This document shows positions 2,696 to 24,126 of a DNA stretch of 46,596 nt, piece after piece. The first letter of the stretch is position 1. Every line of letters starts with the position of its first letter. The DNA lies in contig JAFUNF010000017.1 in the NCBI GenBank assembly GCA_017473085.1, positions 1-46,596 of the forward strand, given 5' to 3'. A program made the translations under genes and the position numbers. This stretch comes from Clostridia bacterium. Lineage in GTDB: Bacteria; Bacillota; Clostridia; Oscillospirales; CAG-272. The notes beneath the pieces were generated by a model, which did no database searches, had not been told where the DNA came from, and saw only the letters and a program-made list of their open reading frames with translations.

Positions 2696-2741
2696 ACATT
2701 TCTCCTTGTAATCAAAAACAAATTTCATCTCTAATTACAAG

Positions 2742-2783: not shown

Positions 2784-2842
2784 GCACATTTTATCTCATT
2801 TGTCAAGTCTTTTTTTTAAATTTCTTTGCTTTTTTGCAAAAA

Positions 2843-2877: not shown

Positions 2878-2927
2878 CTTAACTTAATGATATTGGGTAA
2901 GCACCTGTTTCTTTTTTATAACGTATG

Positions 2928-4454
2928 CTATGCGAGCAAACCCGAATACTCAAGGACGGTCGTTGTAATTATAAATGCAACGCCGACCAAGGTTAATATA
3001 CCAAAAACGATTTTTCCACGTCTTCCACTTGTAATAAAGCCATAAACAAAGGCAGCTGGATAGAAAAATATAAACAAAAGAATGAAAATTCCCCAGTTGA
3101 AGGTTCGAGTAGAAGGAGCATTCACTTGCCTTCTTCTTGGCTCGGAATAAGTCTCCACAGGGCTTCCGTTAGAACAACGAACACTAATAATATCGTTTCT
3201 GCCTTCCTTCTTTATAAGCACCCTGTTCATTTCCAATCCCGTAATTTCACTTTCCTCAACCCTCGGTCTATCTACGTGCTGCATGCTATAAACGTTTGCA
3301 GTAGATGAGCCTGGTAAAATTTGATCAAAGGTTGCATATGAATCGCCACTTGTTATGGTATTGTTTATTTCTACCTTTTGATATTTGCCAAAATATTTAG
3401 AAAACTTCTCGCTCGAGCTAGCCGAATCGTGTTGCGTAACGAACACTGTATTGGCTTTTCCCAACAACGTATCAAACAGACTTTCCGTACCTATGGTATC
3501 AGAATATGTATCATAAGAGGTATACACAAACTTACATCTGTTTGAGAAATTTCTAAGTAGCCTTCCAAGGGCTTCAGAGGCATCAACGGGGATTGAATCA
3601 AGAATAAAAACAAAGCGCCTGCCACCTGACATCGCATCCCTAATTTCCTGAACCAAAACGTTAAGCAACAAATCATTGGAGCTTGAAACAACGTCAATTG
3701 CTATCACGTCATTCTTATTAATTGCTCTGCGTATACTTATAGCACTGTCGCTATTCATCGCTTCTCTATTCGCTAAAATGCAACCAGCTTGGGAATTTAA
3801 CACTCTAAAATACTGCTCTACATTTCCTCGCTCAACCAGTCCCATAGAAATTTGGTCATTAATTTCCTTGGCTACAGCTTGTGATATGTCACCATTTCGA
3901 GCGTGCTCACCAACTCTACGCCACATATCGTCATGAGGACATCTGATATATGAGCTTGCACAAGGAGTATTGGATCTTGCTAGCAGGTAATCGGTCAAGC
4001 CCTTAATATATACTCCACCATTGTGTTGGATTTTACAAGAATCATTAGCTGAGCTTAAAACAAGCTGTGCTATTTGATGCTTGTCCAAATCTAAAAAAGG
4101 GTCATAATTCTTGTTTGTTCCATTCACAATGTGTAATCCACTTTCGGAAGAAAAGGCATCCTCTAACATATGCTCTAGCTGTTCATTCCCACAATGCAAG
4201 ACAATTACCGGATTGCCAAGCTTATAGGCGTTATATGCAGCTGCACAAGACACTCTGTCCCTAATATACTTATTGTTACCCGATGCAATAATATTTTCAA
4301 TTCGTTCCTTACTTACGTAAGTCTCAACTGGGGCATCATGATACTCTACAACGTGCTTGCCTTCCTCGTTTTGTCGATTGATGTTTCTTATTTGACGGCG
4401 AATCCGTGAACGCTCAATAATTCTACGAATAAAGCCAAAAATTAGTCCTAACAT
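2928..4454 (-). CDS. VirD4/TraG-like protein lacking Walker A, with two C-terminal membrane segments
   Basis: Last gene of the large operon, 508 aa, 7 nt after the VirD4-like ATPase gene. The order of blocks follows coupling-protein ATPases: YDPFLDL, a Walker-B-like FVFILDSIP, SYDTYSDTIG..LFDTLLGKANTVFVTQHD, KYFGKYQKVE, and PRVEESEITGLEMNRVLI. Where a P-loop is expected it reads IVLHCGNEQ, with no GKT/S. Two hydrophobic segments close the protein (about 455-475 and 482-502). The N-terminus is a short hydrophobic and basic stretch. I infer a catalytically dead, membrane-bound partner of the ATPase encoded just upstream. The family assignment rests on motif order only. Confidence 0.6.
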   Translation of the reverse strand: MLGLIFGFIRRIIERSRIRRQIRNINRQNEEGKHVVEYHDAPVETYVSKERIENIIASGNNKYIRDRVSCAAAYNAYKLGNPVIVLHCGNEQLEHMLEDAFSSESGLHIVNGTNKNYDPFLDLDKHQIAQLVLSSANDSCKIQHNGGVYIKGLTDYLLARSNTPCASSYIRCPHDDMWRRVGEHARNGDISQAVAKEINDQISMGLVERGNVEQYFRVLNSQAGCILANREAMNSDSAISIRRAINKNDVIAIDVVSSSNDLLLNVLVQEIRDAMSGGRRFVFILDSIPVDASEALGRLLRNFSNRCKFVYTSYDTYSDTIGTESLFDTLLGKANTVFVTQHDSASSSEKFSKYFGKYQKVEINNTITSGDSYATFDQILPGSSTANVYSMQHVDRPRVEESEITGLEMNRVLIKKEGRNDIISVRCSNGSPVETYSEPRRRQVNAPSTRTFNWGIFILLFIFFYPAAFVYGFITSGRRGKIVFGILTLVGVAFIITTTVLEYSGLLA

Positions 4455-4461
4455 ATATTAC

Positions 4462-5787
4462 CTACCTAAAAAGCTCAAATCTGAATTTAAATGGCTCGTG
4501 ATCTGTCAAGCCCACGACAGCCTCGCCCTTTTTTAAAGTGCCAAGGTCCCAGTCCTCAACAACGTTTCCGATTCTTTTGTCTTTGTGCTCATAATCGTAT
4601 TGCTCAATTATATAATTCTTGCCATACTTGCCTACCGTAAATTGTCTGGTTGCCTCATCATTTGCTCTAAATGAAAACACAGAAGAAAATCCTGCAATTA
4701 TATTTTTACCTCTCGCTTCTCCGTAGCTTTCTGTGATTTGATCAATGCTCTGTAATCCAGCAAACACCTTGAGCCCGAGTGAACGACCGAAATTAACCGC
4801 ATTTTCTATATGGAGAAGATCTGGCAGAAGCTTAAATTCGTCACAAAACAAATATACGTTTCCTCTTTCGCCCTCTTTTCTGCTCATAGCTTCCTTGAGA
4901 GCCAAGTCAATTAATAGCTTGTAAATTGGTGTCAGCATTGAGCCACGAGTCAAATCATATTCAATAAATAAGGCTTTAGCACCCTTGTTTCTTACAAAGC
5001 TACGAATGGAAAAATCGCCATTTTCAGCAAAGGAGCTAACGAAAATCTTTCTAATTACCGATTGTAGCTCTGCAAAAACTCCCAGTCCTTGATCGTTATT
5101 ACCATCTCCAACGTAGCTCATAACAGCAACCTGATCGGATTGATTTTCCAATAATTCTCTTAATTCCTTTACACTGAGAGTATTAAGATATGTTTTTAAA
5201 AAAGCGTTATTCAGATACAGCTCTTGAAGCTCTTGACCATTTCCATTTCCCGTTTTCCTAAATATACACGTTAAAATAGCAGAAAGCATATCTCTTGCGG
5301 CATTGGGGAAAAAGGGGTTACTTGTGTTCTTATTGATAGCCTCGCTGAATAAGCCCCAACAAATTTCAGAAATATTATCATTGAGTGTATAAGGGTCTGT
5401 GCCATCAACTAATATTTCCTCAAATACGTTCCAAGCTACTGAAAGATCCCTATATTTTTCAGCCGTTGACAATACACAGTCTCTTCCTTTGTCGAAAAAT
5501 CTCTCGTAATAATCGCCCTTAGTATCAAAGATAATCATTACGTCATTGTCGTCCATTTGATCCTTTAACTGGCTTACAATATGGAAGAAGGTGTTTGTTT
5601 TTCCACAACCAGTTCCACCAATAAGCATCAAATGTCTGCTTAAAATTTCCGAATTCATTTTAAAATCGGTATAACGGTCATTTGACTCTCCATACAAATG
5701 AATAGTCGGCTCCCCATATCCCGAATCGTCAATTCTCGGTGGCATATTTTCTTCCAGTAAGCTTCCGTTCAGCTTTTCCTTTTGCAT
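4462..5787 (-). CDS. VirD4/TraG/FtsK-like P-loop ATPase
   Basis: 441 aa. Walker A is GGTGCGKT at residues 57-64. Walker B is VYLFCDEF, with D316-E317. Then come the VirD4-type motif FAGLQSIDQITESYG and a TraG-like ending. Bona fide type IV coupling proteins are longer and carry N-terminal membrane helices; this one has none, so it may depend on the next protein for anchoring. It would use ATP to move DNA or protein through a ring. No relaxase, VirB4 or other conjugation gene is in the window, so a DNA-transfer role is unlikely. It starts 8 nt after the preceding gene. Confidence 0.75.
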   Translation of the reverse strand: MQKEKLNGSLLEENMPPRIDDSGYGEPTIHLYGESNDRYTDFKMNSEILSRHLMLIGGTGCGKTNTFFHIVSQLKDQMDDNDVMIIFDTKGDYYERFFDKGRDCVLSTAEKYRDLSVAWNVFEEILVDGTDPYTLNDNISEICWGLFSEAINKNTSNPFFPNAARDMLSAILTCIFRKTGNGNGQELQELYLNNAFLKTYLNTLSVKELRELLENQSDQVAVMSYVGDGNNDQGLGVFAELQSVIRKIFVSSFAENGDFSIRSFVRNKGAKALFIEYDLTRGSMLTPIYKLLIDLALKEAMSRKEGERGNVYLFCDEFKLLPDLLHIENAVNFGRSLGLKVFAGLQSIDQITESYGEARGKNIIAGFSSVFSFRANDEATRQFTVGKYGKNYIIEQYDYEHKDKRIGNVVEDWDLGTLKKGEAVVGLTDHEPFKFRFELFR

Positions 5788-5795
5788 CTCTTTGT

Positions 5796-6122
5796 CTATC
5801 TCCTCTTCTTCAAGCTGTAAGACTGAATTTCACATTCTCGTATTTGATGTAATGCAATAATCAAATCTGCATTTTTTTTCTTTTCCTCTTGTTTCTCATC
5901 CTTTTTCAAAGGGTTACTGTCATTGGTTTTGGATGAGGAGGGGGTGTAGTAATCTTGCAATAGAGTAATAATATCTATTAGCAGTCCCTCGTCGCACTTG
6001 CGTTGAGTGATTTGCAAGCGTAATGAAGAAACTAAAGGACCCATCTCAAAGGGTATGATCTCCTTGCTTTGGTCCAAAAGCTCTAATATACGATTGGCAA
6101 CGTGGTTGCTTATATCAATCAT
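5796..6122 (-). CDS. Small charged protein of unknown function
   Basis: 108 aa with no family I recognise. It has a helical N-terminal half (MIDISNHVANRILELLDQ) and a lysine/glutamate-rich linker (about 68-85). Its ATG overlaps the stop of the metallopeptidase gene by four bases (ATGA), so the two are translationally coupled. It precedes the VirD4-like ATPase gene by 8 nt. A small adaptor for either neighbour is possible, but nothing in the sequence proves it. Confidence 0.6.
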   Translation of the reverse strand: MIDISNHVANRILELLDQSKEIIPFEMGPLVSSLRLQITQRKCDEGLLIDIITLLQDYYTPSSSKTNDSNPLKKDEKQEEKKKNADLIIALHQIRECEIQSYSLKKRR

Positions 6123-7336
6123 CTCTTTTGACCCTTAGTTACATTTTCAACCTGTGATACGTCTTGACCCTCTCCCTCAGGCTTTTCATCCACCTTTTGA
6201 ACAACTGGATCTGTTTTTTGCATCACCTTCTCAAAGAAGGATTTGTCCGGCTGTGAATCTATCGTAGCAGAACGTTTTTTTTCTATTTCTTCGAAAAAGC
6301 TCCTGTCCTCGCTTGTATCAATTCCCTTCGATTTGTTTAAAACATTTTCAAAGAAATCTTTATCTCCTTCTTTTTTGTCATTAACCTCTCCGTTATCTCC
6401 CCATTTATATCTAGCGAAGGAATAACGATAGTGATCAGACTCATTTACCTTCTTAGTCTTAAACGTTTCCGTCTCATAAAAATTTGAATACGCTCTATTA
6501 CTACCAAAAATTGCTTTCATTTGTTCTTCAGTTGCTTTACCGCGAGAATCATATTGAAAAACTTCTTTGGCGGTTTCATAGTCTTTTTGGCGAGCGTACT
6601 CTAATACCTTTTGGCGATCTTCTTCTTTTACCTTTTTGTCAGAGATATAAGACAGTTCCTCTTTAGCCATTTCCTCACGCGAATGCATTCCCAAGCATCT
6701 CATCATCTGCTTATTATTGTTTATCTCGCGTGCCTTGGTCGTCTTGAGATAGGCATTAAGATATTTATCTTCTTGACCTTCAATTTTCAACTTTTCAACT
6801 GCAGTATATCCGGCAGCTCGTGCATCTGCTTCGCAAGCCTGAGCACGATACATTTGATAATCAGTTTGAGGATCAAATCTATATGTTCTACCTGTTCTAT
6901 CATTTTTAATCAGATCGCCTTTAGAACTAAAATAATGCTGATCGTTTAATCGTTGCTCTAAGGTTACAAAATCCGAATTCTTTATATCAAGATTTGAAGC
7001 ATGTTCATATTGCGACGCATGTTCCAATTCATGATTAATTGTGTTGAAAACTTTATATGGTGTGTAATAATCTTCGGTATCAGTCAAAACATCATCATTC
7101 AACTCAATAGTATGACCAACACATTTGTTTCCAATGATATTTTGTGAACATGAACCACGCAAGGAAGGAGACCCAGAAAAGAATTCAACCTTTACATTTT
7201 TCAAGCCTTTCTCTTTGCGAATTTCTTCTATAGAAAATCTAATGAGCTCTTCCCTCTTGTCCTCGTCCAAGTACCTAAATTTTTCCCATGCAAAATATGT
7301 TTTATAATTTTCTGAATTTAATGAAAAGTTGCTCAC
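6119..7336 (-). CDS. Predicted zinc metallopeptidase with C-terminal repeated FFE motifs
   Basis: 405 aa, GTG start at 7336 with GGAGG 7 nt upstream, inside the end of the preceding gene. The zinc-binding motif HELEH (H102-E103-H106) is followed by QACEADARAAGY, whose E169 is a likely third ligand as in gluzincin-type peptidases. There is no signal peptide. The tail (about 320-405) is highly charged and carries three spaced copies of a short motif: DKDFFENVLNK (FFE 328-330), DRSFFEEIEKK (347-349) and DKSFFEKVMQK (367-369), 19-20 residues apart. These may be docking sites. The substrate is unknown; another protein of the operon is an obvious guess. Confidence 0.65.
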   Translation of the reverse strand: MSNFSLNSENYKTYFAWEKFRYLDEDKREELIRFSIEEIRKEKGLKNVKVEFFSGSPSLRGSCSQNIIGNKCVGHTIELNDDVLTDTEDYYTPYKVFNTINHELEHASQYEHASNLDIKNSDFVTLEQRLNDQHYFSSKGDLIKNDRTGRTYRFDPQTDYQMYRAQACEADARAAGYTAVEKLKIEGQEDKYLNAYLKTTKAREINNNKQMMRCLGMHSREEMAKEELSYISDKKVKEEDRQKVLEYARQKDYETAKEVFQYDSRGKATEEQMKAIFGSNRAYSNFYETETFKTKKVNESDHYRYSFARYKWGDNGEVNDKKEGDKDFFENVLNKSKGIDTSEDRSFFEEIEKKRSATIDSQPDKSFFEKVMQKTDPVVQKVDEKPEGEGQDVSQVENVTKGQKR

Positions 7337-7339
7337 AAA

Positions 7340-7639
7340 TTATTCCTCCACATTTGGATTGTAAATATTAGGAGCTTCATTAGGCATAGATTCTATGTTA
7401 TGCAAAATAACAAGTGCCTGAATATAGGAAACCTCCATGGACGACTGCAAGATTTCGGTTGAATATTTGCGAAATTGAATATTAGTCATTTTTCCTGTTC
7501 TTATATATTCAACGCAAGCATTAAAATACTTATCCTCAAACCCATAAATTAATGGTGCATATATTGCAACTTCAGCATTAGTCATATCAGAATAAAGCAT
7601 AAAATCACAATTAAATGAAGTAAAATCTATTCTATTCAT
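7340..7639 (-). CDS. Small protein of unknown function
   Basis: 99 aa, strong SD (AGGAGGAG) before the ATG. No family recognised. It is acidic and rich in tyrosine and asparagine (FEDKYFNACVEYIRTGKM, IYNPNVEE), probably globular and cytosolic. It sits 8 nt after the transglutaminase-like gene and 3 nt before the metallopeptidase gene, whose ribosome site lies in its last codons. Tight coupling suggests a 1:1 partner of one of these enzymes. Confidence 0.6.
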   Translation of the reverse strand: MNRIDFTSFNCDFMLYSDMTNAEVAIYAPLIYGFEDKYFNACVEYIRTGKMTNIQFRKYSTEILQSSMEVSYIQALVILHNIESMPNEAPNIYNPNVEE

Positions 7640-7647
7640 AGCTCCTC

Positions 7648-8655: not shown

Positions 8656-8665
8656 AAAACCTCAC

Positions 8666-11600
8666 TTAATATATGTAACTATACATTACCATCAACTTAT
8701 AAACCTCTTCATATGTAGTAAACCCTTTGGCTTCCGCAAGACTAAAATAAGGAGCACATAATTGAACAAATTGCTCGTATGTTAAATACTCTTCGAATAA
8801 TGAATACTCGTAAAGTCCATACTTTTCTACATCCATTTCAAACTGCTCAACATCAAAGGTTAAATCGTCTTTTACATAAGAAGAAATCAATTCATAAATA
8901 GGTATATTTGGGGTACAAGTAACAATGTTTTCGGTAACTGCATTGAAATAATAAGCGGTTACAATTGCATAGGAGCCTACCTTTTCATTGGAAATATTAC
9001 CTGCAACCAATCTTGTCAAAGAATAGGCTTCGTCGGTATCATAGGCTAAAAATTCATGTCCTAAATAATCAGTGTAATTATCACTATTAATTGTTACGTA
9101 TTCTTTTATTGTAGCATCAAAGAATACATGATCGCCAATTATTCGAACAGCTTCTCCACTCTCAAATGATAGAGTTAAAATATTGCAATTGCCTTCCCCG
9201 TGATTAACAAGCAACGTTACAGGAGTTGCAACAAATTTTTGCGTCTTAAAATCCCATGCCAAAATCTCATCGCCCACTACAAGATCTTCAACCTTTTTTC
9301 TTGTACCATCTGGCAGTTTAACAAGAGTTCCTGAAGCAATACAGTGATCTTTTGTAACGTTTCCAGAGGACCACACAGCTGTCAGTGTATGATCTTTAGG
9401 GGTATCTAAAATCGTAGATGAAGTTATTTTTCTACCACTTGAATCTTTCCAATACGAGAAGTTGTAATAGGTATAGCAGTGGTTGCTTGTATCACAGTCT
9501 TGCCTATTTGATCTAGAAGCTGAGGGTAAAGCACCATAAGCTGTTCCATACACAACATCTATATAGGATGTGCTTCCATATCCACTATTATAATTAAATT
9601 CAACCCTATATGTATTTGGTGTCCAAGATACGTTGAAGGTAACGGTTTTGCTACAATCAAAATCGTTATCAGACGTGGAGCCTCTTAAAGCACGGTAGAT
9701 TGTAGCAATCTGCTCGATAGACAATACTTTTCCCTCTAAAGAAACAGAGCCATAATCCGAAATACAACTACTTTTGGAATGTCCTGTTTTAGAAATTTCG
9801 CCCTTAAAGGAGGCTTCTTCTCCGTAGGTTGCTACTGCTGGATTGTAATAAGACGAATCGGTCTGGTCTCCTGTAAACACCACGTTAAACGTATTTGCAA
9901 CCCAATCGGCTGTTAGGACTACCTTCGCGTTTGATTGTGGAATGTGCTTCATGCCCTCTGGCGCAGAATAACCGTATTCATTTTCTACAAGTATCTCAAC
10001 CTTATTAGTATACACGGTGTCATAATACTCCTTGTCCTTTTGGTAAAGGGCTTCGCTAATCCAAATATATCCTGCATTATCTACCCAGCCCTTGAACTTG
10101 TAGCCTTCCCTCTCAATCTGCTTGCTTAAATAAATTTGCACACCGCAAGGAATACCACTCTCTCCAACCGGTGTTGGGCTACCACCGTTTGCATCATAAG
10201 ACAAGTCGTATGATTCAAGTCTAAACACTGGATAAATACGAAGAATTCCATCTGTTTTAGAGGTTAATAGTTCCTTTATCGAGTCAAATCTTAAAACGTC
10301 GTTATACTTAAATTCTTCCTTTGACGCATCAGGCTTAAGTGCCCATCCCAAAAAGCTTCCATAACCACTTTCTGGAGCTCCAAGTGCCAGACTAAGAGTA
10401 ACGTTATCTCCGTAAACATGTTGCTTTGAAGAGCCATACTCTACGTACTCCTTTTGCGTATTCCAGGAGTAAAACTGTAAGGAGAATGCTTGATATACCC
10501 AAGTTGCGTAAAGCTCTATAACTCCGTTGTTGGTAGTTGTCAAATTTTTAACTATTTGCTTGTTATCGTAAACAACCTTCGAAGAGTCGGCAGAACTTGC
10601 CCAGCCTATTTGAACAAAGCCCGAGTAGCTCGGTGTATCGTCGCAAATAGCCGACTCACTATCGTATGTAAACTGCTTTTCGGTATATTCGTCTGTTCCG
10701 TCATTATGGTGCAATCTAACTGTGTAAGAATTTGCTTGCCATTTAGCGTAAAGCTTAATGTCGGATTTGAATTCAAAGGAATCAGACACTAGGTCTGAGG
10801 GATTTACCACGTCGCCATTACTGGAATACCAGCCTAAAAATTGATATCCAACTCTTGAAATTGCGTATTCAGTGGATAATGAAACTGATCCTCCATCCTC
10901 CACCTCAAAATTAGCTATCAGCTTACCGTTATCGTCCTCAAACACACCGCCATTTTTGTATAAAACTACGCTATGAGATGCTGTATCTACAACGATTGGA
11001 TATATTCTGTTAGCATAGCTCTGCCAAGTTTGATTTTCGCTATTTACGTATTCAAGATATTGGTTATCTTCAACGTAGATAGTAGCTGATGAAGGAAGCT
11101 CAAAGTTTTTAACTGAAATTAGCTTGCCTTCAGGCGTATCCTTAATAATAACCTTTTCCAAGCCCTCAAGCAGTTTAAAATCATTCAAATCAACAGACGC
11201 ACGCTTTTCAACACGGACAAGCTGAACGTCCTGCAATTCAGAGCTAGTAAAAACCTCATCCTCGGCAATCAAGGGGTAGCTTTCCGTTAAAATCCCATTG
11301 GTATCAACGGATTTGAATTTTGTTGTAAAGGGAACGCTGAAATTAACCGTTTTGTCAACCTTACTGATAAACTTAATTATTCCCTTTGAAACTCCCACTA
11401 CCTTGAAGGTGCGATCCTGATTTGAATATACAAGCACTTCTTTTGTGAGAACGCTTTCATCCTTGTCGTTTATTGCATACACCTCTACGTCAACATTATT
11501 AGATTTTATCCAGGTGTAGTTGTATTGCTCCTCTTCAAGAACGTCCTCAAGCGTGAATGAGCCACCGTAAGACAATTTATCACTCAAGCCCTCTGTCAAA

Positions 11601-11731
11601 TCCTCGCCAGCCGTAGCCTGACCAAAATAGAAATACAAGCCAATAGCCATTCCAACCGAAGCTATTGCAATAGTTAGCAAAAATATAAAGAAGGCTTTAA
11701 ATTTGCTTTTTTTGAAACTGATTTTTGTCAT
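8666..11731 (-). CDS. Membrane-anchored InlB-repeat protein with C-terminal Hint autoprocessing domain
   Basis: 1021 aa. A basic N-terminus and one hydrophobic segment (about 12-36) fit a signal anchor with the rest outside the cell. Residues ~245-790 hold several Listeria-Bacteroides (InlB B-type) repeats, recognised by the recurring GYxFxGW...IxLYAxW pattern. A Hint domain starts at C797 (CIASGTLVKLPDGTRKKVEDL, VGDEILAWD) and contains the GDHVFF block. Hint domains cut their own backbone at the first Cys. No His-Asn pair ends the domain, so it is closer to hedgehog or pre-toxin Hint than to a splicing intein. A ~90-residue tail of unknown role follows. SD AAGGAG; 10 nt after the GAP1-like gene. 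Confidence 0.8.
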   Translation of the reverse strand: MTKISFKKSKFKAFFIFLLTIAIASVGMAIGLYFYFGQATAGEDLTEGLSDKLSYGGSFTLEDVLEEEQYNYTWIKSNNVDVEVYAINDKDESVLTKEVLVYSNQDRTFKVVGVSKGIIKFISKVDKTVNFSVPFTTKFKSVDTNGILTESYPLIAEDEVFTSSELQDVQLVRVEKRASVDLNDFKLLEGLEKVIIKDTPEGKLISVKNFELPSSATIYVEDNQYLEYVNSENQTWQSYANRIYPIVVDTASHSVVLYKNGGVFEDDNGKLIANFEVEDGGSVSLSTEYAISRVGYQFLGWYSSNGDVVNPSDLVSDSFEFKSDIKLYAKWQANSYTVRLHHNDGTDEYTEKQFTYDSESAICDDTPSYSGFVQIGWASSADSSKVVYDNKQIVKNLTTTNNGVIELYATWVYQAFSLQFYSWNTQKEYVEYGSSKQHVYGDNVTLSLALGAPESGYGSFLGWALKPDASKEEFKYNDVLRFDSIKELLTSKTDGILRIYPVFRLESYDLSYDANGGSPTPVGESGIPCGVQIYLSKQIEREGYKFKGWVDNAGYIWISEALYQKDKEYYDTVYTNKVEILVENEYGYSAPEGMKHIPQSNAKVVLTADWVANTFNVVFTGDQTDSSYYNPAVATYGEEASFKGEISKTGHSKSSCISDYGSVSLEGKVLSIEQIATIYRALRGSTSDNDFDCSKTVTFNVSWTPNTYRVEFNYNSGYGSTSYIDVVYGTAYGALPSASRSNRQDCDTSNHCYTYYNFSYWKDSSGRKITSSTILDTPKDHTLTAVWSSGNVTKDHCIASGTLVKLPDGTRKKVEDLVVGDEILAWDFKTQKFVATPVTLLVNHGEGNCNILTLSFESGEAVRIIGDHVFFDATIKEYVTINSDNYTDYLGHEFLAYDTDEAYSLTRLVAGNISNEKVGSYAIVTAYYFNAVTENIVTCTPNIPIYELISSYVKDDLTFDVEQFEMDVEKYGLYEYSLFEEYLTYEQFVQLCAPYFSLAEAKGFTTYEEVYKLMVMYSYIY

Positions 11732-11741
11732 CGCTTACTCC

Positions 11742-14549: not shown

Positions 14550-14553
14550 GAGA

Positions 14554-16623: not shown

Positions 16624-17219
16624 TTCCCTCTCCTAATCGTCAATAATTTTCTATACAATTTGTCATACCCATCAAATGGAATTCCAATAAAATGAATATC
16701 ATCCTCAAAGCAGAATATATCCACCGTCTTATCCTTAGTCATCAGGACCTCATATTTGTTCTTGTACCTTGAATTCAGTATCCACACGTTTTGGTTTGAC
16801 GAGCCTCTGAGTGGCACGTTGTCCACTAAATTAATATCAAAGGCTCCGTCAATTAAAACAGCTATATGAGACAGGATATAATTAATATCCTCGTCATTTC
16901 GCTCCGTCAGCTCCTTCAAGGTAAAGCCTGTATAAATTAGGATATCCTCATACCCCGCATCATTATAGAGCTCAACCAATGCCTTAAGATCTTGAATTTG
17001 AAGAAACGGCTCTCCACCAGAAATAGTCACACCATCAAATTCTAAATTTAAAGTTGCTTCAAGGATTTTGTCTGGGGATACATTTTTAGATTCATCAAAA
17101 ATTTGTAGCTCGGGATTTGAGCATCCCTTGCAAAATCGATTACAGCCTTGGACCCATATCCCCAGCCTTTTTCCAGGTCCTAAGGTAGTAATTGGAAATA
17201 GAATTTTACCAACCTGCAT
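16620..17219 (-). CDS. NrdG-like radical SAM protein without an NrdD partner
   Basis: 199 aa, the length of anaerobic ribonucleotide-reductase activases. The cluster motif C-x3-C-x2-C is in GCNRFCKGCSN near residue 30. The SAM-binding GGEP motif is in ITISGGEPFLQ-type sequence around residue 68, and a TGFTLKEL block follows. NrdG generates a glycyl radical on NrdD, but no glycyl-radical enzyme is encoded in the operon. It is translationally coupled to the GTPase (4-nt overlap). I infer that this family member has been recruited to modify or activate an operon protein, or that it acts on a distant partner. The ribosome site is weak (AGTAGG). Confidence 0.8.
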   Translation of the reverse strand: MQVGKILFPITTLGPGKRLGIWVQGCNRFCKGCSNPELQIFDESKNVSPDKILEATLNLEFDGVTISGGEPFLQIQDLKALVELYNDAGYEDILIYTGFTLKELTERNDEDINYILSHIAVLIDGAFDINLVDNVPLRGSSNQNVWILNSRYKNKYEVLMTKDKTVDIFCFEDDIHFIGIPFDGYDKLYRKLLTIRRGK

Positions 17220-17244
17220 AATTTTTGCCTACTTACGTTTTTTG

Positions 17245-19194
17245 TTATTTCTTAATCTCTCGCTTATTTTCAACAACGTCTTCTCTTTTACGGGGGTCGA
17301 TTACTATATCTGTTTCTCCAAGCATTTCTTTAATTTCTTCTTCTGTATAACCAGAAAGCTCCAAATACCTCCTCGACTCCTCATAGGAAGAAATATAATA
17401 GTAGTTTTTGATGTTATATAAGGACTGTAATACCTCCTTGGGCATCTCCTCATAGCTACCACAATTACTCATTCCAAAGGACTCAAAGGCACTATGAATC
17501 TCATCTGCCCAGTTACAGGATGCATGAAGCTTTTGCAATTCCTCAGGCGTAATTGTAGTCTTGCCATTACAAAGCACCACTCCTCTTGGGTAAATGCCTA
17601 CTCTTCCGTCAGCACCACAGTCCACGTCAAAAATTGCGCCCTTGCTTTCTTCTCTAACGTAAGCAAGATGTAAGCTATTGTCCTTATATTTTTCTTTTTT
17701 AAATGTCTTGCCAAGCTTTTTATCCTCTACTGCTGTCGCTATGGCACCAAACGTGCCCTCTTGTACACAACGGTTTAAAAGCTTAGTCAAATTATCGTTT
17801 TTCTTTTTTAGCTCCTCTATTTGCTTTTTTGGATTTTCATAAGCCAACGCAAGCTCAAGTGGAGAGCAAAAGTCTTGTTCTCCCTCTTCGTCTACTTTGT
17901 TTTCGGAATCCCTTTCATCCTCATCTACACTTATAAATCCTTGTAGCTTTATGTATAAATCCTCGTACCTTAAATGCTCCTCTTTAAATTGCAAATAAAT
18001 TTCGTTTCCACTAATGCAATCAGCCTCAAGGGTATGTAATTGGGTTATTATCGACTGCAATTTGCCAATCGTCGCTTCGGACATAACCGAGCTTCTTAAG
18101 GGATTCAAGCCATTAATTAGCTTGTCGATGCTCGCACGATTTTTGGTATTTACAAATTCCAATTGATTAATTCGAGCTATTATCTCGTCACTTTCTTTAA
18201 TAATCTTAGAGCTTCTTTGGGTATAATCTGCATTCGTTTCATTTTCAACAACGATTGACTTAAATACAGGCTTTAGTAAGCCACTTAAGTCACCCAATGA
18301 TTTTAATTGTGCAGATACTCTTTCCCTAATTTCTCTTGCATCTGCATTGGATTTTTCTCTTTCTCTTAATAGGGCAATTTCGTCCTCAATGCTTTTCAAA
18401 GCCTTCTCGATTTTCCCCTGTGCGCCCACGTCAAAGATGTCGATACTCTCCACCTCTTTTTTGATACGCTCAAAGTACCCCATCATATCCTTATCCTTCA
18501 TTACCTCAAAAAGCTTGTTGAGGAATGAAGTAAAATTCTCCAAGCGAGTAACCTTATCTTTTAGCGAAGCCTCCATAGCATCAATGGAATCGGCAGTGTT
18601 AGAGCTTGGAAGCCCTATTGAAGAAACGTTTCTTTGTAAGGAGGCAAGCTCCGTCATTGAGGTACACTTATCAATAGAGCTTTTCGCATTTCGACACTCA
18701 TTAACACACTGGTTTTTGCAATTATCAAGAGATGCCAGTTCAGCTTTAATCGTTTTCTCAGCTTCCCTTACCTTGTCAAGCTCCGAGCTTAAATCATAGG
18801 TACCAAAGGGAGTTGTGCGTGACAATACGTTTTCTCTTATAAGCTTACCACAGTGTGAAAGCTCACGATATAATTTTTCCTTTTGTAGCTCGTACTCCTT
18901 TTCAATATTTTTTACCTTAGCATCTATTTTTAATTTTTCTTTTTTCTTATTTTCATTTAAAATGCGCTTTATCTCTTCGTTTGCTCTGTGACGCTCCTTC
19001 GCCTTATTAATTTCCTCTTGTATAAAGGAATGGTTCACTCCTTGACTCCAAGCATTGTTGGATACAGTAAATTTAATTTGATTGTCTTCAACCCTAATCT
19101 TAACACCAAGTTGAAATCTGGATAGCTGTGCAAAAATGTTAGCAGCCTCCTGTGCCGAGCCGAATGGAAAATTGTAATATTTAGGACCACTCAT
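17245..19194 (-). CDS. Long coiled-coil protein beginning MSGPK
   Basis: 649 aa from the ATG at 19194, chosen because GGAGG lies 10 nt upstream; the ATG at 19203 is only 1 nt from it. The start overlaps the end of the zinc-ribbon gene by 14 nt. After MSGPKYYNFPFGS and a ~50-residue head, residues ~65-440 are charged heptad-like helices with several cysteine pairs. A C-terminal globular part follows (about 470-640: KGAIFDVDCGADGRVGIYPRG..) and ends in a charged tail. No enzyme motif. MSGPK openings recur, as far as I recall, in coiled-coil proteins of multi-gene conflict systems. It is probably a scaffold. Confidence 0.6.
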   Translation of the reverse strand: MSGPKYYNFPFGSAQEAANIFAQLSRFQLGVKIRVEDNQIKFTVSNNAWSQGVNHSFIQEEINKAKERHRANEEIKRILNENKKKEKLKIDAKVKNIEKEYELQKEKLYRELSHCGKLIRENVLSRTTPFGTYDLSSELDKVREAEKTIKAELASLDNCKNQCVNECRNAKSSIDKCTSMTELASLQRNVSSIGLPSSNTADSIDAMEASLKDKVTRLENFTSFLNKLFEVMKDKDMMGYFERIKKEVESIDIFDVGAQGKIEKALKSIEDEIALLREREKSNADAREIRERVSAQLKSLGDLSGLLKPVFKSIVVENETNADYTQRSSKIIKESDEIIARINQLEFVNTKNRASIDKLINGLNPLRSSVMSEATIGKLQSIITQLHTLEADCISGNEIYLQFKEEHLRYEDLYIKLQGFISVDEDERDSENKVDEEGEQDFCSPLELALAYENPKKQIEELKKKNDNLTKLLNRCVQEGTFGAIATAVEDKKLGKTFKKEKYKDNSLHLAYVREESKGAIFDVDCGADGRVGIYPRGVVLCNGKTTITPEELQKLHASCNWADEIHSAFESFGMSNCGSYEEMPKEVLQSLYNIKNYYYISSYEESRRYLELSGYTEEEIKEMLGETDIVIDPRKREDVVENKREIKK

Positions 19195-21322
19195 CGCCGT
19201 CATTCCTCCTTTTTTCTACTTTTATTGGTTTTTCATCTGTCGGTTTTTTATCTATCGGTTTTTTATCTAAAGAGCTCTTGTCCGATGGCATCTTGGAGAT
19301 AGGCACTTCATTTTTACGTCTTACACCACGTGCCTCGTCGTCAGCTAATTTCTTTCTTTGTGTCTCAAGCTCCTTGTTTAGCTCCTTTACCTTGGAAGCC
19401 AAGACATTGAACGCCTTTTCCTGCTCGGACTTAAATTTCGAAGCTCCTCCTTCCTTAGTGTTATCTAAAATATATTCAATAACACAAGCCACGTCAGAAT
19501 TGTTATAAAATCGACTTACTTCTCTTGCGATTGGTTCTGAGTTGACAGATTCAACTAACGCCTTGGTCTGCTCCAAAAGTGTAGCAAACCTACCCTTGTG
19601 CCAAAACTTAATCCTATTAATAGATTTACTTGATACGTCTAAGCACTTCAAGTATAAGCTAACAGAAGGCTCATTGCCAGTTTCATTTACAATCAAGTCC
19701 TTCAAGGAAGCAAAGGTTAAAACCGTTTTGGCTTCATTAGAGGTATGTGCTTCTCTAATCTTGACAAATCTATTATCATCGTCCCATAGAACGTGGTTTT
19801 TTAGTAATTCAACAAGCTGTTTATATCTTTTGATACACTCGTCAAGCTTTGACATATACGCATCACATATAATGCTTTTCATCTGCTTAAAGCCTTGAAC
19901 AGAATCACTTAAGACAATATCCTTATATCGGATTTCTTTCTTACCTTGAATAGCATATTGATAAAAGCATAGCCTGTCATAATACGTACCGTCAATCGAA
20001 TCAAAGTAATAGTCGTTGATGTCATCAAGGCTTCCCTTGACCTTGTCCCAAAAGCGACTATATCGTTTAATGCTCTCTATGAATATGTTTCTATTCGAAA
20101 TTAAATCGTCAAACCTGTGCAAATCTTCAATGAAAGAGGTGCCAAAGTTAATAAGCTGTCTATCATCTGTTACGTACACAAACAAGCCTGTTTTCTCATA
20201 TATCATAAAGGACAAGCCGATGCTAGAGTTCTCATAGTCACCAAAGAATGCCTTTTCCATTTCAATGCTTGCAACGGACATATATAGGTTAATCAGTTGT
20301 TCTCTTTTTGAGCTGTCTGCAATCAAAAGTGCATCAACAAACTGTCTTATACTATTGAAGCAGGCTATTTGACCTGAAAGGCTCCAACGCAATTCTCCTA
20401 CATTGCCTAAGCAGTACTCATTCATATACCAATAAAATGCCTTTTCTATTGGCAAAAGATCATATTCCTGAGAGTTTATCTTGTTTTCGATACTGCTTAA
20501 TTCCTTATAAATAGACGTATTAACGCCATAGTCATTTAAGCTTTTAAGATAATTCTTATAGCCTTGAGTGAAAGCAACACCCTTATCCGTCATGGTGAAA
20601 ACCTCTTGAACGGCAAATTCCTTATACAGCTCATGATGCAAGCTCCTGCAATCATTGTAGGAAACACGATAAACGTTTCCTTTAAAATAGAACGGAAAGC
20701 TACTTTTTATATTTGGTGCCGAATCAGCTGGTTCTTCCTTTTTCAATTGAAGCAGGTAAGAAATTGCATTAGCCTTGTTCTGTGCGCTATTTTGCGAATC
20801 AAACCTCTTAGCGTTTTCGATGCTGTCGTATATGTTATGGCTTTCGTGACAGTTACCACACGTCACTTTTTTCTTCTTTATGAGTTGAAGCTGTTTTTCT
20901 TGGCATTTTGGACACTGAAAAACCAAATACTCCTCATGAAACAACTCTTGCCTTAGCTCCTCAACGCGTAAAATTATATCCTCTGTGCTTTGCCTACCTT
21001 CGCATTCAGCGGCTTGATAAGCTTCCTTAGGTCCATCACTTATTTTTTTTAGCTTCCCTGTGGAAACCTGGTACCATCTAACCACTTCCGACTTCTTTGC
21101 CTCTTCTCTATACTCACGTATCATTTCATTAATCTCATTATCAGCATCTCTACTGCTCATAATATGCCTTTCTGCGTGAGGATACGCATCGGCTAAAATT
21201 CTTTTATGACTATGTTTAAAACTGATGAAGCTTTCGGGTAAAAAATCCTTCTGACCCGAAATCTTCTTAATGTAAAAATTATGCCTTTTATCATAGAAGA
21301 TTATAATTTTATCGTTTTCCAT
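19181..21322 (-). CDS. Zinc-ribbon protein of unknown function with repetitive basic tail
   Basis: 713 aa. Start chosen at the ATG at 21322 (AAGGG and GGAAG upstream) rather than the TTG at 21331. The N-terminal ~130 residues include an IIIFYDKRHNFYIKKI strand-rich part. A zinc ribbon (C137-x2-C140 ... C155-x2-C158) follows, then a long helical region with no recognised family. The last ~40 residues are a lysine/aspartate-rich low-complexity tail built from repeats such as DKKPIDKKPTDEKP (DNA tandem repeat about 19220-19270). It begins 12 nt after the 181-aa gene. An adaptor role is possible. Confidence 0.6.
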   Translation of the reverse strand: MENDKIIIFYDKRHNFYIKKISGQKDFLPESFISFKHSHKRILADAYPHAERHIMSSRDADNEINEMIREYREEAKKSEVVRWYQVSTGKLKKISDGPKEAYQAAECEGRQSTEDIILRVEELRQELFHEEYLVFQCPKCQEKQLQLIKKKKVTCGNCHESHNIYDSIENAKRFDSQNSAQNKANAISYLLQLKKEEPADSAPNIKSSFPFYFKGNVYRVSYNDCRSLHHELYKEFAVQEVFTMTDKGVAFTQGYKNYLKSLNDYGVNTSIYKELSSIENKINSQEYDLLPIEKAFYWYMNEYCLGNVGELRWSLSGQIACFNSIRQFVDALLIADSSKREQLINLYMSVASIEMEKAFFGDYENSSIGLSFMIYEKTGLFVYVTDDRQLINFGTSFIEDLHRFDDLISNRNIFIESIKRYSRFWDKVKGSLDDINDYYFDSIDGTYYDRLCFYQYAIQGKKEIRYKDIVLSDSVQGFKQMKSIICDAYMSKLDECIKRYKQLVELLKNHVLWDDDNRFVKIREAHTSNEAKTVLTFASLKDLIVNETGNEPSVSLYLKCLDVSSKSINRIKFWHKGRFATLLEQTKALVESVNSEPIAREVSRFYNNSDVACVIEYILDNTKEGGASKFKSEQEKAFNVLASKVKELNKELETQRKKLADDEARGVRRKNEVPISKMPSDKSSLDKKPIDKKPTDEKPIKVEKRRNDGDEWS

Positions 21323-21334
21323 TGCTTCCAACCC

Positions 21335-21880
21335 TTATTTTTTCGGTATAAAGTATTTATCATTTTCATTATGCAAATCTATTTGAGATGCATTAAGAAA
21401 TGCTTCAGCGCTTACGTTTGTATAAAAGCAAACCTGCTTCCCTGTTGAGTGCATTGCCATAAGCCTTGAGATAATAGCCTCGATTTGAAAAACAGTCCTT
21501 GAAAAATTCTCAACTAACCCTTTCCAGTCGTGATTCAAGCAAATGCTCTGTAAATTTTCAAATTCGACAATCAACTCAGCCGAAGCCTGCTTAACAGACG
21601 AATCGATCTCAACGTCGTTTCTGCGAACCCTACAATAGGGCTCCCTAAGAAACGACCTTAACGTTGAAACCAACCTGTCACACAAAATTTCTACGTTAAT
21701 CAAATATTGAATTTCGTCCTCGTCAAAGGAAAACGCTTCTCCCAGTAGCTTCTGCGTATATTTAAGTCTACCAGATGTTATCCAATATTTTTGAAGGAAC
21801 TCGGTTCCACTTTTTTCCGAGTCCACCTCTCCTATAATTTTCGACAAGAGATATGCTTCTTTATCGTTTGAAATATCCAT
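21335..21880 (-). CDS. Small helical protein of unknown function
   Basis: 181 aa. The ATG lies 2 nt beyond the stop of the ClpB-like gene, whose last codons contain the ribosome site GAGGT; translation is almost certainly coupled. It is mostly helical, with conserved-looking FSRTVFQIEAIISRLMAM and a hydrophilic N-terminus. There is no signal, membrane segment or catalytic motif. Its position suggests an adaptor or substrate-loader of the AAA+ protein; this is inference only. Confidence 0.6.
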   Translation of the reverse strand: MDISNDKEAYLLSKIIGEVDSEKSGTEFLQKYWITSGRLKYTQKLLGEAFSFDEDEIQYLINVEILCDRLVSTLRSFLREPYCRVRRNDVEIDSSVKQASAELIVEFENLQSICLNHDWKGLVENFSRTVFQIEAIISRLMAMHSTGKQVCFYTNVSAEAFLNASQIDLHNENDKYFIPKK

Positions 21881-21882
21881 GC

Positions 21883-24063
21883 TTACCTCAACTCAACAAA
21901 CAAATTTCCATTATCAACGTCCATCACAGCCGAAAGCTTCGTCTTTAAGAAATACTCAGGCTCCGATAAAAAGTCGCTTATAGGCTCGCTTATCAGCTTG
22001 TCAACACAAGACACAATTTCACGTCCACCCAGATTAATAACCTTTGGCTTTTTAACCTCGGCTTTAATAAATTGCTGTGCACCAGCCGTAATCTCCAAGT
22101 CAAGCTGACTATCGTGCTCCTCTTTCATAGTTTTAATAAACCTCTTAATTGTAACGTCAGCAATTCTTTCTGCAATTTCAGTAGTCATAAAGTTGAAGGT
22201 TAGGATATTACCGTCTCCAATTCTACCCAAAATCTCACGACGGCCAATGTTTTCAAAATAGCTCTGTATTCTTGCAGTTACACATTCGGAGGTAAATTTG
22301 TTAAATGCCGTCTCAGGTCCCTTCTCTCCTAACTCTTGATAGCACTTTTTGAAAATATAGTCGTCTTGAATATCACAGGTCAAGCCCTCCAAGCCAGCCC
22401 TAGTAAAGTACCTCTTATACAGCTTATCGACTAAAGCCTTTCGTTCTGCCTCGTCTTGAGACGCTTCAATTTTATACTCCAATGCTTTTATTTCTTCAGC
22501 CAAGATTTTTATAGAATTATCTCTTTCAATTCTAGCCACATCCGTTGTCACAGAATCTGCAGTTATACCTAAGTTTGATGTGAAAACAATGATAGACTGT
22601 GTAAAGGAAACGGTTTCTCCCTTTCCGTCGGTCAATCTACCGTCGCCAAGTATTTGAAGGAATTTATCCCAAATTCTTGGTGCCGCCTTTTCAATTTCAT
22701 CAAACAAAATAACTGAAAATGGGTTCTGCTTTACAGCCTTTGTAAGCTCACCGCCTGCCTCATAGCCAACGTATCCTGGAGGGGCACCGAACAATCTGGC
22801 ATCAGAATGCTCCTCTCTAAATTCACTCATATCGAATCTAATCATGCTATCTTGCTTTTGGAAGATATTTTCAGATATTTGCTTTGTCAGCTCCGTTTTT
22901 CCCACACCGGTAGGTCCGGCAAAGAATAGCACCGCACGTGGACGTCTGTCGTTCCTTTTGGAGCTTTTAACGCCGGTTGCAGCAACTCTCAGGGCTTTTA
23001 TCGCACTAACAATTGCTTTATCCTGTCCCAAAATTTCATTAGCAATATTTCCACCCATTTTATCAATTCTCGTCATCAATTCAGGGTCTCTCCATGGGTC
23101 CTTGCTTTGTCCTGAATCGAAACGCAAAACGGTTTTATCAATGTTTTCGATTTTTCTCAAGGATGGCACGTTTTCGTCAACGTTATCAGCCTCTTTTTCT
23201 ATAAACAATTTCAGCTGACGCAATCTTCTTAAGGAATAGTTTTCAGTATATGAAGAAAACTTTAGAATTTTAGCACCTGCCTCGCTCTCAGGAATTGGGT
23301 CCATAATGTCCTTCATTTCCAATTCAAAGAAGGTCTCTCTAAATTTGCTGTCAGGCGTTGGAATGTATAGCTTTTTGAGTGCCGAGTTATTATTCTCAGA
23401 TTCAAACCACGTGGGCAAGTCGTTTATTTTATCAACAAACATCATCAGCTTGCAGTCGGTTTTTTCTATCTGGGTTGCATTAAACAAAATCATTAAAATT
23501 GCATTTTCATTTTCGTCAGGACGGCCTGGGGTGGTCATATATCTGGAAACGCCTGGAAGAATAAACATAAAGGGCTTCGCTTCTGCATATCTTGGGTCCT
23601 TTTGTTTTTCCTCAAAATCGTTCATCGCATCGTAAATTCTACGAATGTCAATGGTTTTTCCACCTTGCATACGTTTGTTTGAGGATTCAGATATCTTGTT
23701 CAAATATTCACTCTTATAATATTCCTTAAAAAGCTCAATATTGGGCGAGGTTATTCTGTCACCACTCTCTTGTGAATAAATAGTTTTATTGTAGAAGGTA
23801 AAGGAATTAAACCAGGCATCGTCCACCTCTGCATCCTCCTCGATGGTCCCACCACACTGCTTGGTATGGTCATAAAACACAACGCAATAATTCTCGCTGT
23901 ATGCTTCTGCAATAGCCTCATTCAAGGAAACGTAGTCAATGTCGTTTTCATCATGCTCAATAGGCTGTAAGTCGTTTACGTTTCCCTCCATTACAAAGCT
24001 TTTAAATGTATTCATATACATTTTTAAATCGTTTTTCCATTTGATGTCGTAAGTAGCTGCCAT
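21883..24063 (-). CDS. ClpB/ClpA-D2-like AAA+ ATPase with degenerate N-terminal ATPase-like domain
   Basis: 726 aa, first gene of the operon. Start at 24063, 7 nt after GGAGG. The N-terminal ~330 residues (FVMEGNVNDLQPI, YVSLNEAIAEAYSENYCVVFYD, KPFMFILPGVSRYM) resemble the inactive AAA-like first half of Ycf46-type proteins. The AAA+ module has Walker A GPTGVGKT (383-390), pore loop region GYVGYEAGG, Walker B ILFDEIEKA (D455-E456) and sensor ILVFTSN-type FTSNLG. The C-terminal D2-small region follows (VDKLISEPISDFL). It lacks the Clp N-domain and the ClpB middle coil. A hexameric unfoldase or remodeller acting on operon products is likely. Confidence 0.85.
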   Translation of the reverse strand: MAATYDIKWKNDLKMYMNTFKSFVMEGNVNDLQPIEHDENDIDYVSLNEAIAEAYSENYCVVFYDHTKQCGGTIEEDAEVDDAWFNSFTFYNKTIYSQESGDRITSPNIELFKEYYKSEYLNKISESSNKRMQGGKTIDIRRIYDAMNDFEEKQKDPRYAEAKPFMFILPGVSRYMTTPGRPDENENAILMILFNATQIEKTDCKLMMFVDKINDLPTWFESENNNSALKKLYIPTPDSKFRETFFELEMKDIMDPIPESEAGAKILKFSSYTENYSLRRLRQLKLFIEKEADNVDENVPSLRKIENIDKTVLRFDSGQSKDPWRDPELMTRIDKMGGNIANEILGQDKAIVSAIKALRVAATGVKSSKRNDRRPRAVLFFAGPTGVGKTELTKQISENIFQKQDSMIRFDMSEFREEHSDARLFGAPPGYVGYEAGGELTKAVKQNPFSVILFDEIEKAAPRIWDKFLQILGDGRLTDGKGETVSFTQSIIVFTSNLGITADSVTTDVARIERDNSIKILAEEIKALEYKIEASQDEAERKALVDKLYKRYFTRAGLEGLTCDIQDDYIFKKCYQELGEKGPETAFNKFTSECVTARIQSYFENIGRREILGRIGDGNILTFNFMTTEIAERIADVTIKRFIKTMKEEHDSQLDLEITAGAQQFIKAEVKKPKVINLGGREIVSCVDKLISEPISDFLSEPEYFLKTKLSAVMDVDNGNLFVELR

Positions 24064-24097
24064 ATTATCCTCCAAAAAATAATTATTTATATCATAT

Positions 24098-24126
24098 ATT
24101 GTAACATAATTCGACAATGTAGTCAA
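24098..24126 (-). promoter_or_regulatory. Sigma-A promoter of the large operon
   Basis: On the minus strand, -35 TTGACT (24121-24126) and -10 TACAAT (24098-24103) are separated by exactly 17 bp. They lie 34 bp before the first start codon. No comparable promoter was seen between the 14 genes, where gaps are at most 25 nt. Confidence 0.8.

Follow-up and report, generated by a model that had tools for sequence, protein, structure and literature searches.

The closest described relatives of the locus analysed here are the DO-GTPase/GAP1 systems defined by Kaur et al. 2020 (PMC7159879), whose three published themes are a tubulin, an HSP70/GrpE or a kinase module (52+14+10% of neighbourhoods). Within the literature searched, the term DO-GTPase is found in that paper and in passing in a 2024 article (PMC11237479), which places a DO-GTPase near PSP genes and predicts a role in membrane-related stress. 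Our subject is a 14-gene operon (g01 to g14 in the order of transcription; Table 1) in a 46,596-nucleotide stretch of a Clostridia bacterium genome (contig JAFUNF010000017.1), referred to throughout as the window. The operon joins a ClpB-type AAA+ ATPase (g01), a radical SAM protein (g05), a GTPase (g06), a GAP1-like protein (g07), an InlB-repeat protein with a Hint domain (g08), a transglutaminase-like protein (g09) and a VirD4-type ATPase with its partner (g13 and g14). We read it as a conflict system of the DO-GTPase/GAP1 class that is mosaic in composition, moves horizontally and is probably directed against invaders, and we regard that reading as roughly an even call; we favor it because of the conserved gene order, the GTPase family, the conserved motifs and the discordant inheritance. 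Judged from predicted domains, what is new in the operon is that the position held elsewhere by HSP70 or tubulin is taken by a ClpB-type ATPase and a radical SAM protein.

The case for a unit begins with its recurrence. A two-row GTPase alignment run against the contigs of species genomes (84,980 species) retrieved at least eight loci besides the window, one of them in the same-genus genome G008; every count out of nine below refers to the window plus the eight loci listed, and nine is a lower bound (at least nine loci). The loci come from metagenome-assembled genomes (MAGs) labelled Clostridia and Bacilli, and in 9/9 the order AAA, g02, g03, g04, radical SAM, GTPase, GAP1-like protein and InlB-repeat-type protein is kept. 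Because this order recurs at GTPase identities of 24–71% to the window's copy, it is more than chance. An earlier note on this DNA, made from the letters alone, had expected the core to recur in unrelated genomes, as it does, and had allowed that the genes might fail to co-occur elsewhere; we looked at this and found the order kept throughout. The same synteny bears on the idea that unrelated genes were co-oriented by chance, which could appeal to promoter-like sites that occur at chance number and cannot prove a single transcript. The shared order across MAGs of both labels rules this out for g01–g08 and, in five loci, for g11, g13 and g14, leaving g10 alone unsupported, and we consider it next to impossible.

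Around the kept order, the loci vary. Assignment was by position and size, at no BLAST match at 1e-3, for g02, g03, g04 and the GAP1-like protein of locus L012 and for g02 of L011; g08 of L009 is partial, truncated by the contig end. L012 carries an extra 320-residue protein between the GAP1-like gene and the InlB protein and has, in place of the Hint protein, one of 1784 residues that contains 14 InlB repeats and gives no Hint match. The transglutaminase-like gene is present in 8/9 loci: it directly follows g08 in 5/8 of the other loci (L005, L006, L008, L010 and L011), lies before g11 on another contig (L018) in the L009 genome and is found upstream of the AAA gene in L012. Five of the nine (the window, G008, L008/L016, L009/L018 and L012/L017) contain g11, g13 and g14 as distal genes; searching for g13 in the L005, L006, L007 and L011 genomes, which are MAGs and may be incomplete, gave no match. 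The VirD4 pair and the HExxH gene g11 are an optional distal module, and with that module in five of the nine loci, the earlier picture of all 14 genes as one fixed machine does not hold.

Protein distances correlate across the nine families (r 0.72–0.98), with r 0.82–0.98 among the GTPase, GAP1-like, radical SAM, AAA and g02–g04 proteins and the lowest values for the Hint protein (r 0.72–0.83); L012 was dropped here, and no correction was made for shared history. This is as expected of a unit travelling together, and shared history alone gives part of the correlation. Mean pairwise identity, again with L012 dropped, is 27–31% for g02, g03, g04 and the GAP1-like protein and 49–58% for the GTPase, AAA and radical SAM proteins.

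The g06 GTPase ties the operon to a described class. The DO-GTPase2 family (PF19993) is matched by 8/9 GTPase members at E≤0.1 (best 1.3e-7; the window's g06 at 0.002, below the curated cut-off), and an hhalign comparison of the GTPase family with a three-row alignment of more distant relatives (L043, L044 and L045) reached 99.6% and 6.1e-25 over 299 columns. Those three rows derive from weak GTPase matches, of which the L043 and L045 GTPases are Pfam-verified and that of L044, examined only through its GTPase profile match and one protein without a Pfam match, is not. The G1, G3 and G4 motifs are invariant in 9/9 members, as are the cysteines C278/C281/C300/C322 and the residues D487, G490 and E491 of the FYDxxGE motif. 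On these profile matches, the g06 family is a member of DO-GTPase2. Its neighbor g07 is less securely placed: GAP1-M is matched by 6/9 GAP1-like members at E≤0.1 (best 1.4e-4; the window's g07 at 0.036, below the curated cut-off), which points weakly to a divergent GAP1-like protein. The earlier proposal of a TRAFAC GTPase with a GAP1-like partner, thus, stands for its first half, as a DO-GTPase2 family, and weakly for its second through GAP1-M, with GAP1-N2 and the profile comparison giving it nothing.

A canonical HSP70-type DO-GTPase/GAP1-N2 system exists in the same genus (L045:2-11518, genome G025). It consists of an HSP70+VWA fusion (truncated where the contig begins), a DZR/fn3 protein, two DO-GTPase2 genes, a GAP1-N2/M gene and, as its last gene, a homologue of g09 (hidden Markov model (HMM) E 8.6e-32; hhalign 99.3%) that has no Pfam match of its own at 0.01. 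L043 carries Tubulin_2, DO-GTPase2 and GAP1-M. Among the 14 operon proteins, Pfam gave no tubulin, HSP70/GrpE or kinase match, and therefore the operon would fit none of the three published themes. Profile comparisons between g03 and the L045 DZR/fn3 protein, between g03 and g04 and between the GAP1-like protein and g03 were negative, and these candidate homologies were rejected.

The operon also seems to move horizontally, because its proteins put the window nearer L006 and a control gene puts it nearer G008. In 8/9 core proteins, the window is closer to the Bacilli-labelled L006 than to the same-genus G008, the exception being g02 (27.1% versus 28.6%); the control gene at 35759-39361, NifJ-like by eye, is 89–95% identical to two G008 pieces and 53% identical to the L006 genome. 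In a tree of 3743 columns, concatenated from six alignments and drawn with L012 as the outgroup, the window groups with L005 (support 100), and these two join L006–L009 before G008 (support 95). The GTPase was found in 2/145 relatives, with the own genome counted, the other being G008. The genus sample holds a full-length copy in 2/29 genomes (again these two) and weak partial matches in G025, G006, G001 and G015 (1.4e-5 to 9.4e-4); the order sample holds it in 1/394 genomes, the own one; and the class sample (391) holds the own genome plus weak matches in G145 (1.3e-8), G596 (2.6e-6) and G731 (2.9e-5). Neighbourhoods were viewed for three of the seven weak matches (G145, G596 and G025).

This distribution also bears on a reading without any conflict role, in which a membrane-tethered remodelling ring under GTPase control would serve membrane stress or protein-quality control. 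The ClpB-type ring here and the HSP70 of the canonical same-genus system are both chaperone families, and the membrane-stress prediction for a DO-GTPase near PSP genes (PMC11237479) points the same way. However, a sporadic and discordant distribution would be unusual for such a role, as would the fast-evolving partners g02, g03, g04 and the GAP1-like protein, and we give it a low probability.

Pfam was run on 24 window proteins, including all 14 of the operon and leaving out three further large ones, and its matches uphold most of the domain calls in the earlier note: AAA_2 for the ClpB-like ATPase, Fer4_12/Radical_SAM for g05, TrwB for the VirD4-type ATPase, Transglut_core for g09 and Flg_new with Hint for g08. 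Both Walker motifs, A and B, are intact in the window's g01 and invariant in 8/8 aligned sequences (L005 left out of the alignment). The g01 N-terminal region of about 350 residues resembles a degenerate AAA domain, by eye only; it has no Pfam match and, searched alone against plasmids, no match, and it does align inside whole-protein matches to plasmid homologues. The CX3CX2C and GGEP motifs of g05 are invariant in 9/9 members, C161/H195/D210 of g09 in 8/8 aligned sequences and the HExxH of g11 in 5/5 copies, one of which, that of G008, has no BLAST match to the window's and was assigned from place and motif. From family knowledge, we take the motif residues of g01, g05, g06, g08, g09 and g11 to be catalytic. 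Profile searches of solved structures with g03, g04, g14 and the GTPase gave nothing useful, the sole PDB match of g04 being 8qaf, sc-apCC-8, at E 0.028. The Pfam run likewise gave nothing useful for g02, g04, g10 and g12, or for most of g03, g11 and g14. At the place of g10, G008 has a CxxC/DUF2225-like protein, and L012 has one further along; at the place of g12, open reading frames (ORFs) of 108–115 residues occur in G008, L017 and L018, with none in L016.

The g08 protein deserves separate attention. Its Hint match (28.1 bits) falls just below the curated cut-off of 29.7, and the family profile matches structures 6y75/6tmm at 4e-5. These entries, which bear another molecule name, we take to be bacterial intein-like (BIL) domains. 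Searched as a single sequence, the C-terminal 244 residues had no match. Cys797 and His868 of the Hint domain are invariant in 7/7 aligned sequences, and mean identity over the seven is 40% in the Hint domain and tail versus 30% in the repeats. Because the C-terminal HN splice motif is absent by eye, N-terminal cleavage or transfer appears more likely than splicing. In a hydropathy scan of g08, g09 and g11, an N-terminal membrane segment was found in g08 alone; g09 and g11 therefore do not look exported, and the earlier notion of three extracellular-type enzymes shrinks to g08.

The main rival to a conflict system starts from this protein. The operon would be a surface-display machine that builds, self-processes and anchors the InlB-Hint protein (in L012, the InlB-repeat protein), with the AAA ring and the VirD4-type motor exporting it and g09 processing or cross-linking it. 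A large InlB-repeat-type protein does follow the GAP1-like gene in 9/9 loci (partial in L009 and, in L012, after the 320-residue protein), and the Hint domain and tail are the better conserved part of g08. Yet the VirD4 pair is missing in 4/9 loci that retain the surface protein, g01+g05 and g09 homologues are found in loci without a recognised protein of this kind, the operon's g09 lacks an export signal, and the Hint protein is the one that correlates least with the other core proteins. We consider surface display unlikely.

The g13/g14 pair raises another alternative, that the operon belongs to a conjugative or other DNA-transfer element in which these two are coupling proteins and the rest is cargo or regulators. 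The g13 protein is a clear TrwB/VirD4-type ATPase that is 57–63% identical to copies in four other loci (g14, 31–47%), and relatives of 35–39% identity lie on Paenibacillus and Curtobacterium plasmids. However, g13 and g14 are present in only 5/9 loci, no PF03432 relaxase was found in the own genome at E≤0.001 (87% complete; the search covered this one relaxase family and not VirB4), and among the 24 window proteins run through Pfam there is no transfer gene besides g13/g14. With no relaxase found and the VirD4 module optional, a conjugation locus was rejected, and DNA transfer in general strikes us as very improbable. In the surroundings of the g13 relatives on the two plasmids, no operon gene was annotated or matched. 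The source genome holds a second VirD4-type gene (G000:C20:45869-47119; T4SS-DNA_transf 3.4e-28).

The AAA and radical SAM proteins also occur together elsewhere. Relatives of g05 on plasmids adjoin AAA genes, and two of the plasmid AAA proteins align with g01 by hhalign at 9.1e-82 and 8.9e-76 over 459 and 558 columns. With a Rhizobium AAA protein as query, 20 plasmid records were found at E≤1e-60; 13 of them carry a radical SAM gene directly beside the AAA gene, seven viewed (L048, L050–L054 and L056) and six judged by match coordinates, with six records left unchecked for such a neighbor. HMM matches to both proteins are present in 7/8 viewed plasmid loci holding the AAA gene. Five stretches (L051, L052, L053, L054 and L056), on plasmids of the proteobacterial genera Photobacterium, Acinetobacter, Moellerella, Polaromonas and Leisingera, share one annotated order: a helicase-size AAA-domain protein, a PIN-domain protein, a protein of about 370 residues, an AAA ATPase and a 4Fe-4S single cluster protein. 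The first protein of the Photobacterium cassette, the only helicase of the five compared with PADLOC, has AAA_11/AAA_12 helicase domains and matches MkoA (Mokosh) at 7.9e-93. In these cassettes, AAA and radical SAM genes are adjacent, whereas g02–g04 lie between them in the operon; the HMM search of the plasmid loci, in which g13 was not included, gave no match to the GTPase, GAP1-like, Hint, transglutaminase or g14 families, and among the 14 operon proteins there is no helicase or PIN match above cut-off.

We suggest, tentatively and as something short of probable, that the ClpB-type ring, paired with the NrdG-like radical SAM protein, is a general, portable arming device, in which the ATP-driven ring would hand a partner protein to the radical enzyme for activation and which would be plugged into different conflict systems. 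Its hosts would possibly be, with the same reserve, the helicase-PIN cassette on proteobacterial plasmids and, in gut Clostridia and Bacilli, the membrane GTPase/GAP1-like switch together with its transglutaminase-like output and self-processing surface protein. Other surroundings of related radical SAM genes were also seen. An Aristaeella locus combines kinases and a phosphatase with a DUF4011/MTES_1575 helicase. On a Calothrix plasmid (L049:9938-19610), a g05-like gene sits beside Hsp70 and TPR genes, with two DO-GTPase-like genes within 10 kb of it on the other strand; a Calothrix AAA gene near a related radical SAM gene was rejected as a g01 homologue, only a short P-loop stretch being aligned.

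Under the conflict-system reading, the parts could work together as follows. The zinc-ribbon GTPase would be docked on the GAP1-like protein embedded in the membrane, and together with g02–g04, which evolve fast, it would sense a perturbation nearby. The ATP-driven ClpB-type ring would remodel the GTPase/GAP1-like complex, and its radical SAM partner would chemically arm one component. Arming would free a cytoplasmic enzymatic output, the transglutaminase-like g09, for which the likeliest activity is that of a peptidase or cross-linker. In loci with the distal module, the HExxH protein and, at the membrane, the VirD4-type motor pair would add to this output. Facing outward, the InlB-Hint protein would form a membrane-anchored repeat stalk, which the Hint domain may cut or re-attach through a thioester.

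Several observations weigh against this reading. The sensing, arming and output steps are all ones that we infer, and the prediction of membrane-related stress for a DO-GTPase near PSP genes (PMC11237479) also fits a non-defence role. The canonical hallmarks are incomplete: GAP1-N2 is matched in 0/9 GAP1-like members at E≤0.1, a profile comparison with the GAP1 proteins of L043–L045 was negative (the L044 target row itself being without a GAP1 match), and none of the 14 proteins has an fn3 match at E≤1, FNIII being typical of canonical systems. The proposed output gene g09 is absent after g08 in L007 (1/9 loci), and the Hint domain is absent in L012; a plasmid g01 homologue (L055) has no radical SAM match in the stretch viewed; and the more distant GTPase matches L043, L044 and L045 lie in other neighbourhoods. 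PADLOC-DB 2.0.0, given 10/14 proteins, returned partial matches only, among them PDC-M37B, DolB, pVip, mad8 and HerA, and the operon encodes no recognisable nuclease or other toxic effector. Among viral contigs searched with the GTPase alignment, 56 stretches fit the pattern and none was a relative, and the literature searched, in the parts accessible, yielded no anti-phage assay of the DO-GTPase/GAP1 class. Defence-type (TIR) genes stand beside the full operon in 2/9 loci only, with other flanks covered partly. The earlier expectation that the core lies near defence genes or mobile elements is, thus, met indirectly, by these two TIR neighbors, by horizontal transfer and by AAA/radical SAM homologues next to helicase and PIN genes on plasmids. 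From the published class, the mobility and the neighbors taken together, we infer a probable defence role.

Coordinates are collected in Table 1. The source genome is 1.7 Mb in 33 contigs, and the window is the start of contig 15. As the earlier note had it, 14 minus-strand ORFs fill 24126-2928 at intergenic distances of −14 to +25 nt, and the overlaps that it listed are present (ATGA at 16620-16623 and 6119-6122; 14 nt at 19181-19194). Translation of g03 starts at TTG 21331 or ATG 21322, so that 3 or 12 nt separate it from g02. For g01, ATG 24063 is more likely than TTG 24126 because homologues begin there and a GGAGG precedes it. The single promoter of the earlier note sits in a suitable place and carries a TG extension, and such sites are found at chance frequency in both halves of the region (34 versus 34.1 expected; 27 versus 29.3), as are weak terminator-like sites elsewhere in it. 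The strong hairpin at the end is real, but it lies within an insertion sequence and is part of that element rather than the operon's own terminator. The insertion-sequence stretch has 22 other genomic matches, eight to the left end and 14 to the right, of which ten end at window 2895-2898 and four extend to 2914-2920, the g14 stop being at 2928. Several contigs, among them the window's own at its far end, terminate in right-end copies, and the assembly therefore seems to break at this element.

Table 1. Features of the operon and its borders in window coordinates
Feature	Position	Strand	Basis
Candidate promoter, TTGACT-17-TACAAT with TG extension	24098..24126	-	34 nt upstream of ATG 24063; well placed
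g01, ClpB-type AAA+ ATPase with its own ~350-residue N-terminal region	21883..24063 (open to TTG 24126)	-	AAA_2 E 2.1e-44
g02, small protein	21335..21880	-	0 Pfam matches; ORF of 177-187 aa here in 9/9 loci
g03, zinc-ribbon-like, polar tail, fast evolving	19181..21331	-	Sub-threshold zinc-ribbon matches only; in place in 9/9 loci
g04, MSGPK protein, coiled-coil-like	17245..19203 (start ATG 19194)	-	MSGPK start in 8/9 aligned
g05, radical SAM, NrdG/Fer4_12 type	16620..17219	-	Fer4_12 E 2.4e-29; Radical_SAM also supported by Pfam
g06, DO-GTPase2-family GTPase, N-terminal zinc ribbon	14554..16623	-	PF19993, motifs, hhalign
g07, GAP1-like, about four C-terminal membrane segments	11742..14549	-	Weak GAP1-M; hydropathy of window protein
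g08, N-terminal membrane anchor, InlB B-repeats, Hint and conserved ~80-residue tail	8666..11731	-	Flg_new 3.9e-16, Hint 1.8e-6
g09, transglutaminase-like cysteine enzyme, no signal or membrane segment	7648..8655	-	Transglut_core 9.8e-8
g10, 99-residue protein	7340..7639	-	Not recognised elsewhere
g11, HExxH (zincin-like), polar tail	6119..7336	-	Weak SprT-like match only, 0.099
g12, small protein	5796..6122	-	Position and size only
g13, VirD4/TrwB-type ATPase without membrane segment	4462..5787	-	TrwB_AAD_bind 2.1e-41
g14, partner of g13, two C-terminal membrane segments	2928..4454	-	Hydropathy; weak TrwB C-terminal match 0.033
IS4/DDE_Tnp_1-type insertion sequence, directly after g14	1230..2898, ends approximate		Transposase in two ORFs
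Terminator-like hairpin, strong	2837..2874 (approx.)	-	-21.1 kcal/mol, z -6.4; inside insertion sequence

Some neighboring features are worth recording in their own right. A second cluster lies beside two of the operons (L003:2126-9371 in G008, just downstream of g14, and L019:6723-13661 in G456). It comprises a TIR protein, a protein of 653/681 aa that is 23% identical over part of its length and an ATPase, ParA-like by eye, that is 35% identical between the loci and whose G008 copy has no Pfam match; G008 adds a PAD_porph gene (peptidyl-arginine/agmatine-deiminase type) and an AdoMet decarboxylase. This TIR/ParA-like cluster may itself be a separate conflict system. Elsewhere in the window, the protein at 39575-42931 combines, by eye, an XRE-type DNA-binding N-terminus, a membrane segment, InlB repeats and BspA-type leucine-rich repeats, and could possibly be a one-piece surface-to-DNA sensor. 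A Gut-1 RNA (RF01706; 35619-35703, plus strand, 56.3 bits) adjoins the NifJ-like gene.

As far as the literature searched reaches, the operon is an undescribed composition: at listing level, no description of its gene combination was recognised. In Kaur et al. 2020 (PMC7159879), the main text contains no VirD4, internalin, coupling protein or Hint domain; radical SAM appears in it a single time, in connection with FtsH systems, and ClpB is mentioned only through the ClpN domain and in a reference. Two separately predicted modules would here be tied together through a common AAA/radical SAM pair, and, if it is true that radical chemistry arms an immune output, this would be a new activation route in bacterial defence. 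Testable predictions follow from the VirD4 module being optional and from the transglutaminase-like gene being shared.

Several parts of the operon can be set against known systems. With BIL/Hedgehog-type Hint proteins, g08 shares the Hint fold and the Cys/His pair presumed catalytic, but it is without the C-terminal HN (by eye), has a conserved extra tail and is fused to InlB repeats. Dodola DolB and the candidate PDC-M37B match g01 over the ClpB-like AAA core only, and no DolA or Mko match was found among the ten proteins given to PADLOC. The FtsH ternary systems (PMC7159879), in which an FtsH-type AAA protein with an inactive N-terminal AAA domain has MoxR and vWA partners, share an AAA+ protein with a long N-terminal part and a radical SAM gene, whereas the operon's AAA protein is ClpB-type (AAA_2/ClpB as best match) rather than FtsH-type, no second AAA+ ring is present, and Pfam finds no vWA match in the 14 proteins. 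With DO-GTPase systems as described in PMC7159879, the operon shares the N-terminal zinc ribbon and a conserved glutamate, that of FYDxxGE, which we read as the Walker-B glutamate of that description, and with DO-GTPase/GAP1-N2 systems it shares a GAP1-like gene directly downstream, C-terminal membrane segments and an extracellular-type repeat protein. In contrast to the latter, it has InlB repeats in place of the FNIII third component and one GTPase instead of two, and it adds the ClpB-type AAA protein, g02, g03, g04, the radical SAM protein, the InlB-Hint protein and the optional VirD4 pair.

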